Source of the DNA: Leisingera sp. ANG59
GTDB taxonomy: Bacteria > Pseudomonadota > Alphaproteobacteria > Rhodobacterales > Rhodobacteraceae
Assembly: GCF_013317235.1 (NCBI RefSeq)
Contig: NZ_WLCM01000019.1
Span: forward strand, 8,808-72,807
DNA length: 64,000 nt
Direction: 5' to 3'
Position numbers and translations under genes: made by a program. Under the pieces are notes generated by a model. It was not told the DNA's origin. It searched no databases and saw only the letters and a program-made list of their open reading frames with translations. Shown piece by piece: positions 26,496 through 50,385 of this stretch; position 1 is the first letter of the stretch; every line of letters begins with the position of its first letter.

Positions 26496-26851
26496 GCAAA
26501 GGGGGTCGGCACGCTTTGGCATTGCTTCGCACGGGGCGGCAATGCTGGGCCGTGACATACGGTAGCGCCGATCCGGCAGAGCAATTCCAGTGGCTGGCGC
26601 ATGTTTCTGGCCGCTCTGCGGCCGAACCTGGAAAAGCCGGAACTCTGTCATTGCCACCTCCCGGCGACTCTGCTAAACGCCATCCATCCTGAAGACCCCG
26701 GATTCGTTTCCGGGGTCGTTATGTTTGTCAGGATGTTCGAACTCGGGGACCTTCGGGGCCCTATAACTCGGCCACCTTCGGGGGGCTTTCAACATAGCCG
26801 GGCCAAAGACAAGAACCTAAGGCCTGGCACGCTAAACGGAAGACAGAAAGC
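26496..26851. promoter_or_regulatory. Leader region of the rplB transcription unit
   Basis: This 356-bp gap has no credible gene. It contains a strong hairpin at 26694-26717 (GACCCCGGA / TCCGGGGTC) and two shorter GGNNACCTTCGGGG elements at 26745-26782 just upstream of rplB. The first hairpin may terminate upstream transcription. The downstream part probably holds the promoter and 5' leader of the rplB-rplP genes. TATAAC at 26762 could be a -10 box, but no good -35 pairs with it. Confidence 0.45.
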
Positions 26852-46380: not shown

Positions 46381-46488
46381 GTTACGCAACGGCAGGTTCG
46401 GCCATTCTGGATTCACTTTCCATGTGAAAGGGAATCGTAATTTTCTTCTGACTTAACTCTCGCATCCGAAATTTCCGGGACAGATGTG

Positions 46489-48912
46489 ATGGCAAAGAAG
46501 AAGACGTCCGCGGCCAGGCGGTTCTCACTGGCAAATCTCAGCACCAAGGTGAAAATCGTATCCGTTGCGGTGCTGCCGCTGCTGCTGGTGCTTGGGGTAG
46601 GCGTGCTGGCGGTCTTCAATCTGGGCCGGATGGAGCAATCTGCCAAGGCGGTGGACCACACCCAGGAAATCCTTACCGGATCGCAGACCCTGGCGGAGGC
46701 TGCCTCGCAAATGGAGGCCGGCCTGCGGGGCTACCTGCTGGCGGGCCGGGAGGAATACCTGGTCCCCTTTGAAGAGGGCAAGGGGCAGGTGGCTGAGACG
46801 CTTGCCAGCCTGCGCACGCTGGCAGCGGGCGACGCTGATATGCTGGCCACCTTGGACGAGGCAGAGCAGATCCTAGCGGGCTGGCAGGAAAACGTGGCTG
46901 CCGGCGCCATCGAGCTGCGCCAGGAAATCGGCGACGCCATGACCATGAACGACATGGCCGCCGAGGTGAAGAAATCCAAGGGCCGGGTCTATTTCGAACA
47001 GTTCCGCACCGAGATGACCAATGTGATCGAGGAGGAGGAAGTCGAACTGAATAACCGGCGCAACACCTTTATGTCGCTGGTCAATGCCGGCATTGCCGAT
47101 GCGGACTACCTTAACACCTCGCTGCGGGCGGTGGAGCAGACCCACAAAATCATCAGCCGGGCCAAGGACCTGTTGGCCGCGGCTGTGGACATGGAAACCG
47201 GCATGCGCGGCTTCCTTCTGGCGGGCGACCGGGAGTTTCTCGATCCCTATATGGAAGGCAACGGGCGCTTCAACGAGGTGCTGGCCGACCTCCGCCTGGC
47301 GCTGGCGGACAACCTGATGCAGACAAACAGGCTGAACAAGGTGGCCAAGATCATTGACGAATGGCGCAGCGAGGTGGTGGTGCCGATGCTGCAGCTGCGC
47401 CGGGTGATCGGCAGCGCGGCCACGATGGACGACATGGCCGACCTGGTGGCCGAGGGCCGCGGCAAGGAGTACTTCGACAGCTTCCGCGCCACCATGACTG
47501 CCTTGCAGGCCGCCGGGGCTGAGGCCATGGCAAGCCGCCGCGCCGCCAACGAGGACCTAGGCGCCCAAACCCGCACCATGATCCCTGCAGCCATCGGCGG
47601 CGCCATCCTGATCGGCGGCATCCTGGCGCTTGTGATTGCCTCCGGCATTGCCTCCGGAATCCGCCGCATCGTGATGTCGATGCGCGGGCTGGCAGAGGGT
47701 AACAACGCGGTAGAGATCCAAGGCCAGAACCGCGGCGACGAGGTTGGCGATATGGCCCGCGCGCTGGAGAAATTCCGCGATGAGCTGGTGAGGATGCAGG
47801 AGGCCGAACAGCAAAAGGCCGAGAGCAAGGACGCAGAGCTGGCCGGCGTGGTGCGCGAGCTGAGCGAGCGGCTGTCGCGCCTGGCGCATGGCGATTTGAC
47901 CGTCCGCATCGCCGAGGCATTCCCTGAGGAATACGAACAGCTGCGCGCCGACTTCAATGGCTCGATCGACAATCTGAACGCCACCGTGCAGCAGGTGATC
48001 GAGGCATCTTCGAGCATCCGCAACGGGGCCGCGGAGATCAGCCAGGCCTCTGACGACCTGTCGCACCGGACCGAGAGCCAGGCCGCGACGCTGGAGGAAA
48101 CCGCGGCCGCAATCGATGAGCTGACCGCCAGCGTGAAATCGGCAGCCGAGGGCGCCCGCAACGTGGAAAACACCGTGCGCGAGGCCCGGCAGGAGGCTGA
48201 GAGCAGCGGCGAGGTGGTGCAGGACGCGGTCGCCGCAATGAGCGGAATCGAGGCATCCTCGAACCAGATCAGCCAGATCATCAGCGTGATCGACGACATC
48301 GCCTTCCAGACCAACCTGCTGGCGCTGAACGCCGGCGTCGAGGCCGCCCGCGCAGGCGAAGCCGGCCGCGGCTTTGCGGTGGTGGCGTCCGAGGTGCGGG
48401 CGCTGGCGCAGCGATCCTCTGACGCAGCGATGGAGATCAAGACGCTGATCTCCGACAGCTCCCGCCAGGTGGATCAGGGCGTCGATCTGGTCGGCCGCGC
48501 AGGCCAGGCGCTGCAGTCCATCGTGGGGCGGGTCAGCCATATCTCGCAGCTGGTGTCTGAAATCGCCGAGGGTGCCGAGGAACAGTCCACCGGCCTGCAT
48601 GAAATCAACACCGGCGTCACCCAGCTGGATCAGGTGACCCAGCAGAACGCGGCGATGGTGGAGGAAGCCACCGCGGCGGGCCACATGCTGAACACCGACG
48701 CGATGAAACTGGCCGAGCTGGTGGCGCGGTTCCAGGTCGATGGCAGCACGGCTGCGCCAGCAGCTCCGGCGGCGGCAGCGGACGCTCTCCCCTCTGCCCA
48801 TGGCGACGAGGATTGGGGCGGCGGCGACTGGGAGGTGGAGGCCAGCCCGGCGCCGGTTGCGGTGCCTGCGGGCGATGGCAATGCCGCCCGCGATCTGTGG
48901 CAGGACTTCTGA
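46489..48912 (+). CDS. Methyl-accepting chemotaxis protein with two CHASE3-like modules
   Basis: The 807-residue receptor has one membrane helix near residues 22-45. A large sensor region with two similar helical modules follows ([17 protein letters not shown] and [20 protein letters not shown] mark the repeats), then a second helix near 365-385, HAMP, and the signalling domain ([20 protein letters not shown] hairpin). The last residues LWQDF fit the xWxxF tether for CheR/CheB. The sensor lies outside the cytoplasm; the ligand is unknown. No other chemotaxis genes are adjacent. Confidence 0.9.
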
Positions 48913-48931
48913 GCCTTGCCGGCAGGATGAT

Positions 48932-48966
48932 GCAAAGGGCCCTCCCGCGCGGGAGGGCCCTTTGCC
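48932..48966 (+). terminator. Intrinsic terminator after the chemoreceptor gene
   Basis: GCAAAGGGCCCTCCCGC / GCGGGAGGGCCCTTTGC forms a very stable, almost loopless stem, with TTTG forming part of its 3' arm. It insulates the downstream aroG leader from read-through. Confidence 0.8.
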
Positions 48967-48988
48967 GCATCGGGGGCCAATTTACGGG

Positions 48989-49017
48989 GTGACAGCCCTG
49001 CGAATCTCCGCTAGCGT
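48989..49017 (+). promoter_or_regulatory. Candidate promoter of the aroG leader
   Basis: GTGACA (48989-48994; five of six to the consensus) and TAGCGT (49012-49017) are 17 bp apart. A start about seven bases later would fall at 49024-49025, on the ATG of the leader peptide. Leaderless leader peptides of this kind are known for the rhizobial trpE(G) attenuator. Confidence 0.5.
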
Positions 49018-49024
49018 CCGGCTC

Positions 49025-49102
49025 ATGACCCGCACCTATGCCGCATTCTGGTATTTCTTTTATCCGCGCCATATGGCGGACGGAGGGGTCAGCGCATTCT
49101 GA
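49025..49102 (+). CDS. Aromatic-rich leader peptide of the DAHP synthase gene
   Basis: A 25-codon frame encodes a peptide beginning MTRTYAAFWYFFYPRH. Codons 8-13 (49046-49063) are Phe-Trp-Tyr-Phe-Phe-Tyr in a row, and 8 of 25 residues are aromatic. It ends 32 bp before an intrinsic terminator that lies between it and the DAHP synthase gene. This is the design of a ribosome-mediated attenuator: scarcity of Phe, Tyr or Trp charging would stall the ribosome on the run. The peptide itself need have no other role. Confidence 0.85.
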   Translation: MTRTYAAFWYFFYPRHMADGGVSAF

Positions 49103-49163
49103 GTTAAGAGACCGGAAAGCACCAGGATACCACCAACCGCCCGCAGCCCGCAGGCGGTTTTTT
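49067..49163 (+). terminator. Attenuator of the DAHP synthase gene
   Basis: The terminator is AACCGCC (49135-49141) / GGCGGTT (49153-49159) with T residues to 49163. Right after the aromatic codons, CGCCATATGGCG (49067-49078) is a perfect palindrome. Its 3' arm, with the next base, gives GGCGG (49075-49079), complementary to CCGCC (49137-49141) in the terminator 5' arm. A ribosome stalled on the aromatic codons would open the palindrome and free GGCGG to block the terminator. Confidence 0.7.
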
Positions 49164-49209
49164 CGTATCCGCCGCAGCGCCAAGGGCCTCCCGCCAAGGA
49201 AGCTGAAAC

Positions 49210-50289
49210 ATGACACCCCAGACCGAAAACCTCCGCATCACCGGCATGCAGGAACTGATCTCTCCCGAGGACCTCGCCGCCCAAATGCCCTCGACGGCGG
49301 CAGCCACCGACACCGTGCTGGCCAGCCGCACCGCCATTCAAGACGTTCTGCACGGCCGTGACGGCCGGGTGATCGCCGTGGTCGGCCCCTGTTCGATTCA
49401 TGATCCGAAGGCGGCGATGGAATACGCCGAACGGCTGTCGCCGGTCCGCGAACGGCTGGCCGGAGAGCTGGAAATCGTGATGCGGGTCTACTTCGAGAAG
49501 CCCCGCACCATCTCGGGCTGGAAGGGGCTGATTAACGATCCGGGCCTCGACGGCTCCTTCCGCATCAACGAAGGGCTCGGCCTGGCGCGCCGCCTGTGCC
49601 TGGACATCAACGCCCTGGGGCTGCCGGTCGGCACCGAGTTCCTGGACACCGCGGTGCCGCAGTACATCTCCGACTTGGTGGCCTGGGCCGCCATCGGTGC
49701 CCGCACCACCGAAAGCCAGATCCACCGCGAGATGGCCTCCGGCCTCAGCTGCCCGGTGGGCTTCAAGAACGGCACCCGCGGCAATGTGCAGATCGCGGTG
49801 GACGCGGTGCGCTCCGCCGCCCACCCGCATCATTTCATGGCGCTGGCTAAATCGGGCCGCGCCGCGATTGCGGAGACCAGCGGCAACCCGGACTGCCACC
49901 TGATCCTGCGCGGCGGCGGCGGCACCAACTATGATGCGGCTTCGGTCGATGCAGCATGCAAGCTGGCGGAAAAGGACGGTATCCGCGGCCATGTGATGAT
50001 CGACGCCAGCCACGCCAACAGCGGCAAGGACCCGATGCAGCAGCCCGCGGTGCTGCGCGATGTGGCGGCGCAGATCGCGGGCGGCGACAGCCGCATCACC
50101 GGCGTGATGGTGGAAAGCCATCTGGTGGCGGGCCGTCAGGACCTGGGCAAGGGCGCGCTGACCTACGGCCAGTCCATCACCGACGGCTGCCTCGGCTGGG
50201 AGGACACCGTGGCAGAACTGGAGCATCTGGCTGCAGCCGTTGCCAAACGCCGCACGCTTGCCGCGCAGAGGGACCTGGCCGACGCATAA
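49210..50289 (+). CDS. aroG: DAHP synthase (class I, AroG/F/H type)
   Basis: The 359-residue enzyme condenses phosphoenolpyruvate and erythrose 4-phosphate, the first step of the shikimate pathway. GPCSIHDPKAAMEYAERL, RVYFEKPRTISGWKGLI, FKNGTRGNVQIAVDA and HVMIDASHANSGKDPMQQP are the class I motifs with metal and substrate ligands. It starts at 49210 after AAGGAAGCTGAAAC. Expression is probably set by the upstream aromatic leader attenuator. Its allosteric specificity (Phe, Tyr or Trp) cannot be read by eye; the mixed aromatic leader suggests it may be the only or main isozyme. Confidence 0.93.
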   Translation: MTPQTENLRITGMQELISPEDLAAQMPSTAAATDTVLASRTAIQDVLHGRDGRVIAVVGPCSIHDPKAAMEYAERLSPVRERLAGELEIVMRVYFEKPRTISGWKGLINDPGLDGSFRINEGLGLARRLCLDINALGLPVGTEFLDTAVPQYISDLVAWAAIGARTTESQIHREMASGLSCPVGFKNGTRGNVQIAVDAVRSAAHPHHFMALAKSGRAAIAETSGNPDCHLILRGGGGTNYDAASVDAACKLAEKDGIRGHVMIDASHANSGKDPMQQPAVLRDVAAQIAGGDSRITGVMVESHLVAGRQDLGKGALTYGQSITDGCLGWEDTVAELEHLAAAVAKRRTLAAQRDLADA

Positions 50290-50318: not shown

Positions 50319-50385
50319 GAGTATTTGGGCAAAGAAGAAGAGCCTGCTTAAAATTGCCTCCTCTTCTTCTTTGCGGAAAATACTC
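50319..50385. repeat. Inverted pair of a short interspersed repeat
   Basis: GAGTATTTGGGCAAAGAAGA (50319 on) and its inverted relative ending GGAAAATACTC (50361-50385) face each other between aroG and the protease gene. Their inner arms AAAGAAGAAGAG / CTCTTCTTCTTT form a 12-bp perfect stem. A third copy lies at 53281. It acts as a hairpin here and may terminate aroG transcripts. Confidence 0.65.

Follow-up and report, generated by a model that had tools for sequence, protein, structure and literature searches.

A predicted ribosome-mediated attenuator with a mixed aromatic codon run before aroG in Leisingera and related proteobacteria

In a 64,000-nucleotide stretch of the genome of Leisingera sp. 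ANG59 (the window, meaning the whole stretch analysed), a short open reading frame with a block of aromatic codons lies ahead of aroG, which raises the question of how this gene is controlled. The reading that we favour, with a probability of roughly 0.9, is a ribosome-mediated transcription attenuator that would adjust aroG expression to how much charged Phe-, Tyr- and perhaps Trp-tRNA is available. A first-pass annotation of the same DNA had proposed that attenuation operates here; the proposal is supported by conservation, by a GGCGG motif kept in three reading frames, by terminator covariation and by the recovery of pheS and pheA leaders; the ribosome stall, the kinetic competition and the amino acids sensed are inferred.

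The leader of 25 codons with its six consecutive aromatic codons, the palindrome behind them and the terminator before aroG all lie where the first-pass annotation had placed them (Table 1). The GGCGG following the run can, as it had also claimed, pair with the terminator 5′ arm, being the exact complement of CCGCC at 49137–49141. Nowhere else in the six frames of the window are five or more Phe, Trp or Tyr codons consecutive, and 40 dinucleotide shuffles of the window contained no such run. The terminator (49135–49163) has a loop of 11 nt, and its U run ends 46 nt before the aroG start. A generic scan, with a loop limit of 3–8 nt as against 11 nt here, found neither a promoter nor a terminator at the leader; the promoter-like boxes and the terminator that it missed recur in relatives. 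The nearest relatives of the AroG protein encoded in the window are from Leisingera (95% to locus L006).

Table 1 Features of the aroG leader region, in window coordinates
Feature	Position	Strand	Remarks
Chemoreceptor-like gene upstream of leader	46486–48912	+	NCBIfam matches below curated cut-offs
−35-like box GTGACA	48989–48994	+	Recurs before alphaproteobacterial leaders
−10-like box TAGCGT within GCTAGCGT	49012–49017	+	Recurs before alphaproteobacterial leaders
Leader peptide ORF, predicted leaderless	49025–49102	+	ATG at 49025, 25 codons, TGA stop at 49100–49102
Aromatic codon run F-W-Y-F-F-Y	49046–49063	+	Stays aromatic in relatives; F and Y interchange
Palindrome CGCCATATGGCG, candidate 1:2 (anti-antiterminator) hairpin	49067–49078	+	
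Segment 2, GGCGG, antiterminator 5′ arm	49075–49079	+	Copies the terminator 3′ arm; 57/57 in alignment A1
Segment 3, AACCGCC, terminator 5′ arm	49135–49141	+	CCGCC in 56/57, CCGCT in 1/57
Segment 4, GGCGGTT and U run, terminator 3′ arm	49153–49163	+	GGCGGTT at 49153–49159, T run to 49163
aroG, class I DAHP synthase, regulated gene in this reading	49210–50289	+	TIGR00034, 504.7 bits; PF00793

In the proposed mechanism, the RNA would start at or beside the leader ATG. With aromatic aminoacyl-tRNA in plentiful supply, the translating ribosome would pass through the run to the stop codon and cover segment 2, whereupon CCGCC of segment 3 would pair with the second GGCGG, in segment 4, to form the terminator, and transcription would stop before aroG. 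With aromatic aminoacyl-tRNA scarce, the ribosome would halt within the run, approximately 11 nt before GGCGG, masking an upstream GCC that is the alternative partner of this motif; the free GGCGG would capture CCGCC on its emergence, the terminator would come too late, and RNA polymerase would enter aroG.

The arrangement is shared by related loci. The locus set was limited to the 80 best of 590 related stretches, and is therefore weighted towards close relatives. When short ORFs with at least four aromatics in eight codons were sought, 77 of these 80 loci were flagged, among them L050, whose flagged ORF was rejected as a leader, being long, weakest in score and not of the motif; 76 remain at a cut of at least five. 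A further leader, missed by the ORF scan, was matched in L065 at 76.7 bits by a covariance model, R1, built from 57 aroG leaders with base pairs of the terminator only, bringing the total to 77 of the best 80 loci (76 by ORF scan and L065 by R1). All 35 alphaproteobacterial loci within this set, their class assigned from record title and tree, have the leader before aroG, and a terminator with a U run is present in all 77 leaders scanned (the window and 76 loci). Three betaproteobacterial loci (L050, L060 and L067) retain aroG but lack the leader; here aroG closely follows another gene, which we take to be tldD-like. Leader loss from a locus that is otherwise kept, the outcome that the first-pass annotation had held to count against attenuation, is thus seen in 0 of 35 alphaproteobacterial loci but is met in these three. 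Wide transfer of the leader with aroG between classes was rejected on the basis of a tree of 81 AroG proteins, which mostly keeps the classes separate (changes: alpha 2, beta 1, gamma 2). Two records titled Nocardioides marinus (L005) and Mycobacterium sp. KBS0706 (L028) carry aroG and the leader within alphaproteobacterial clades and are probably mislabelled or mixed assemblies.

The spacing of the upstream boxes is also recurrent. Of 44 alphaproteobacterial leaders, 36 have a GACA-type box (or TTTACA) 34–36 nt ahead of the leader ATG and 30 have CTA 13–15 nt ahead of it; in three of the 44 (L012, L016 and L179) the ATG assigned is probably an internal one. Shine–Dalgarno-like 4-mers are rare, with 2 instances among the 44 and 4 among the 51 remaining leaders. 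Box spacing and the scarcity of such 4-mers in relatives agree with the promoter candidate of the first-pass annotation, which had put the start on the leader ATG; judged from these signals, transcription likely begins at this ATG and the leader is likely leaderless. The predicted leaderless start is restricted, and excludes Oxalobacteraceae and Burkholderia, where the −10-like box, by eye, stands at a greater distance upstream. A leaderless start with a terminated RNA of approximately 140 nt recalls rnTrpL of Sinorhizobium meliloti, described as starting at its AUG (PMC7298713), and the terminated leader RNA and peptide might, as with rnTrpL/peTrpL, act in trans beside attenuation; the peptide tail, however, varies between clades, and such an additional activity appears improbable.

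Outside the codon run, the RNA arms of the proposed attenuator are among the most constant parts of the leader. In an alignment of 57 leaders (A1), in which the 3′ end of each row was set by the GGCGG-T pattern, the GGCGG of the terminator 3′ arm is present in all 57, as is that after the run, and the single departure in the 5′ arm belongs to L073. The closing pair of the terminator, to which the alignment was not fitted, is standard in 57/57 (A-T 39, G-C 17, G-T 1). A wider set contains 133 leaders, all of which passed an arm search, and 95 are non-redundant. In this search the GGCGG before a T run was located, a segment 3 word pairing with it was chosen, with outward extension favoured, and segment 2 was drawn from six allowed words, so that core pairing in the 95 leaders arises partly by construction: at the five core positions of segments 2 and 3, which are almost invariant, pairs are standard in 95, 95, 95, 95 and 92 of 95. 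Flanking pairs, the counts for which, like all those given here, are inflated by kinship among the sequences, are standard in 57/95 before this core (45 in shuffles; 0/5000 as high), in 52/95 one position further out (46; 83/5000) and in 42/95 after the core (37; 13/5000). For the terminator, the inner flanking pair, unused in arm choice, is standard in 82/95 against 52 in shuffles, and the closing pair in 95/95 against 75, although the latter leaned on arm choice.

Conservation of the codon run and compensatory changes, both named as checks in the first-pass annotation, are borne out on alignment of the regions upstream of aroG, with some compensatory changes and slight covariation between segments 2 and 3. 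The rare segment 2 words are AGCGG, GGTGG, GGCGC and GGCGA; two leaders of one lineage (L204 and L137) combine AGCGG with CCGCT, a compensatory pair, whereas L073 has CCGCT with GGCGG and no compensating change in segment 2, its pairing kept by G-U. RNAalifold, run on the 95 leaders in an alignment (A2) that suffers from misaligned rows, mostly of Oxalobacteraceae, returned GGCGG:CCGCC as the sole helix in the stretch from segment 2 to segment 3, with a covariation term of −0.17 kcal/mol, compared with +0.02 kcal/mol in a set of 18 sequences (Rhodobacterales and two others). The covariation is slight because the helix hardly varies, and this invariance may reflect a lock, in which segment 3 pairs with both segment 2 and segment 4 and any change would require three partners to move.

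Segment 2 is read in frame 2 of the leader in 77 of the 95, in frame 0 in 13 and in frame 1 in 5. The motif is therefore conserved as RNA and not as peptide, which, together with a tail that varies between clades while the RNA stays, makes it very unlikely that the ORF is a conserved small protein with a function of its own and a secondary part in aroG regulation, even though among Rhodobacterales the peptide is kept, including residues past the run. Equally far-fetched is that the terminator is the plain end of the chemoreceptor transcript, the ORF a chance run and the aroG promoter located after the terminator. The generic scan, with no promoter site upstream of the leader, would suit that arrangement; however, the chemoreceptor gene is followed by a separate hairpin of its own (approximately 48932–48967, by eye), the run, GGCGG and terminator recur jointly before aroG in relatives, and the scan found no promoter in the mere 46 nt between U run and aroG. 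Control by an RNA-bound small molecule or protein and no translating ribosome (a riboswitch, T-box or the like) would account for the high conservation of the leader RNA but is scarcely credible, as no Rfam family matches at its gathering score at the site or in 20 related loci and, the run aside, conservation is strongest in the three arms and a purine stretch after GGCGG.

The palindrome forms a stem of at least three pairs in 17/17 Rhodobacterales leaders and in 71/95 overall (48% in shuffles), and of at least four pairs in 41/95 (39% in shuffles). An outer stem around the terminator in Rhodobacterales, GATAC/GTATC, has compensatory-looking pairs by eye and was rejected, as 78 of 500 partner shuffles equal it. 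The purine stretch (GGAGG or GAGAGG; 49080–49088 in the window) after GGCGG is a feature of many leaders, with UCC or CUC often found ahead of CCGCC. A further helix in the antiterminator, suggested by eye and formed by GGA or GAGA with UCC or UCUC, was not adopted: in the set of 18 sequences RNAalifold gave a GG:CC piece with no two-sided change, and a second purine:pyrimidine helix is at most a possible addition.

The RNA of the window was folded from 49025 with ViennaRNA, ribosome positions being imposed as constraints. The predicted terminator probability is 1.0 without a ribosome or with one at the stop codon, and falls to 0.26, with the antiterminator at about 0.7, when codon 12 or 13 (Phe and Tyr, the last two aromatic codons) occupies the A site; any of codons 8 to 11 in that position leaves it above 0.99. 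Before segment 4 is made, the antiterminator reaches at least 0.91 with the ribosome stalled, 0.17 without a ribosome and 0 with the ribosome at the stop codon. The palindrome is partly formed in the ribosome-free fold (probability 0.39–0.45). Across the 57 leaders, the terminator probability exceeds 0.8 in 52 when no ribosome is present, in 57 with the ribosome at the stop codon and in 41 with it stalled, where it is below 0.5 in 9; once the terminator is complete, the antiterminator is thus favoured by stalling in 9/57. Before segment 4 is made, the antiterminator exceeds 0.5 in 57/57 leaders with a stalled ribosome and in 23/57 without one. In 285 shuffled controls the terminator probability fell below 0.5 in 30, and by a laxer measure the arm pairs upstream in 263, so that equilibrium folding, barely distinguishable from shuffles, was rejected as family-wide proof of a switch; the switch would therefore have to be kinetic. 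A difference between stalled and unstalled folds, the check proposed in the first-pass annotation, accordingly appears in the window model, in which a stall at the last two aromatic codons opens the terminator, but does not extend to the family at equilibrium: the modelling is in keeping with the mechanism as regards the window and is no proof for the family.

Of the 95 leaders, 75 encode all three aromatic amino acids before GGCGG, 19 combine Phe with Tyr and lack Trp, and 1 combines Phe with Trp. Their final aromatic codon specifies Tyr in 50 cases, Phe in 38 and Trp in 7 (Phe or Tyr in 88/95), and ends 11 nt before GGCGG in 51/95, with a range of 8 to 17 nt. Given the footprint of a ribosome, the last aromatic codon in the A site would set the ribosome just 5′ of GGCGG. 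Phe and Tyr exchange positions from one relative to another, and the position of Trp is constant in 17/17 Rhodobacterales. Phe is encoded by TTT at 136 of 190 codons in 57 leaders, compared with TTC at 414 of 460 in aroG of 80 loci, a bias consistent with either a sensor that reads less-used codons or a requirement that the run be unstructured. The first-pass annotation had held that the switch senses the whole aromatic branch: all three aromatics do occur in the run, but what is sensed may be narrower, since the window fold opens only at the last Phe and Tyr and the last codon is so often one of these. Control by Phe and Tyr with a weaker input from Trp would be expected from the codon placement and from a precedent in Corynebacterium glutamicum, in which aroF is described as unaffected by Tyr availability despite a Tyr codon in its leader (PMC11802643). 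A more elaborate scheme, in which the mixed run reads three aminoacyl-tRNA pools weighted by codon position (Phe and Tyr near the switch strong, Trp further off weak), with an additional trans activity of the terminated leaderless RNA or its peptide, is put forward as a speculation with a small chance of being right.

Model R1 was used to scan two genome samples, both of which include the genome of the window. In 289 alphaproteobacterial genomes, AroG was matched in 11 at E ≤ 0.001, 10 being true aroG (E < 1e-130) and 1 weak (3e-5). R1 scores at least 43.7 bits in exactly the 10 genomes with true aroG, the window's own among them; by coordinates the match adjoins aroG in 9/10, and in the other (G156) the two are near two contig ends. 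The next match, at 36.6 bits, is by eye no aromatic leader, and at E 0.001 matches extend to 63/289 genomes, many being partial and covering the terminator end only. In the window's genome, no second leader of the aroG type was found with R1, the next best match (26.7 bits) covering the terminator end only. A phylum-wide sample of 348 genomes, scanned with cuts of E ≤ 1e-50 for homologues of class I DAHP synthase and E ≤ 1e-5 for R1, has such a homologue in at least 194 and an R1 match in 63. Judged by eye from coordinates, 49 of the 63 matches are directly before a homologue among the matches listed, and this holds for 23/23 alphaproteobacterial aroG genomes, the window's again included. No R1 match was found beside the homologue, among the matches listed, in 145 of the 194 homologue-bearing genomes, which include many with two or three homologues of E. 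coli type; 20 homologues fetched from loci lacking an R1 match had no convincing leader by eye, and six gave weak ORF matches. In the class of G469, R1 matches 8/276 genomes at E ≤ 1e-6, that in G755 being partial.

The remaining 14 of the 63 matches are 10 leaders before pheS (one identified by PF02912 and nine by resemblance), 2 before pheA (gene identity tested for both) and 2 others (G385 and G552), at which no leader of the aroG, pheS or pheA kind was seen. A model built solely from aroG leaders thus finds leaders of a proven attenuator type. The twelve differ from the aroG leaders in segment 2, which is of the GGAGGC or GGGGGC kind instead of GGCGG, in a run with Phe and little or no Trp, and in the downstream gene, pheS or pheA and not DAHP synthase. 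The E. coli leaders of pheM–pheST and pheL–pheA resemble the aroG leader in having a Phe-rich leader, a copy of the terminator 3′ arm after the run, an intrinsic terminator and a phenylalanine-related gene. Attenuation of pheST and pheL–pheA in E. coli is reported in PMC11802643.

Among described systems, aroR–aroF of C. glutamicum likewise has aromatic codons, there Phe-Tyr-Phe, before a DAHP synthase gene, and its attenuator is reported to respond to Phe limitation (PMC11802643, PMC4046766); compared by its published description, it differs in belonging to an actinobacterium and in having three aromatic codons and no Trp. The trpL–trpE(G) leader of S. meliloti is an alphaproteobacterial attenuator with RNA made from the leader AUG (PMC7298713, PMC10117765), but has Trp codons and precedes trpE(G), and the AUG start reported there is predicted for the aroG leader. 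Two candidate uORF attenuators come close in other respects (PMC8632094): uORFC-13-1 precedes a DAHP synthase gene, aroF, and is reported solely from Acholeplasma and environmental sequences, and uORFC-8-2, before cysS, belongs to Rhodobacterales, the order of Leisingera, but has cysteine codons. The 5′ regions of Shewanella aroF and aroH have been flagged by a classifier (PMC2659441), and in some gammaproteobacteria aroG is described as being under TrpR or TyrR (PMC5343134). An account of a proteobacterial aroG leader was not found in the open-access literature searched; older subscription work could contain one, as could catalogues of computed attenuators, of which Merino's site (mentioned in PMC1173090) is one. 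At the site itself, no covariance model of an Rfam leader family (RF00513 Trp_leader and others) matches, and at E up to 10 no Rfam match reaches past 49011 towards aroG. On the minus strand, a match to the BjrC68 sRNA family (48927–49011) lies over the post-chemoreceptor hairpin and scores 30 bits against a gathering score of 39.

The mechanism is classical, and what is added is the family, its spread, the mixed run and the likely leaderless form in alphaproteobacteria; as far as searched, the aroG leader is a widespread and undescribed example of a known mechanism. It would give many proteobacteria a regulator, outside the Rfam families, for the first step of aromatic synthesis. The genome also encodes a class II DAHP synthase (G000:C2:30258-31568, locus L082), in whose locus R1 has no match, so that aroG may be an isoenzyme tuned by aromatic supply. 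Elsewhere in the window, positions 26770–26849 match the Rfam L2-Alphaproteobacteria ribosomal protein leader (RF03142) at 60.8 bits, and after aroG the sequence GAGTATTTNNGCAAAGAA (50319–50336), of which the genome holds 18 exact copies and 0 of its reversed control, has the appearance of a repeated intergenic element.
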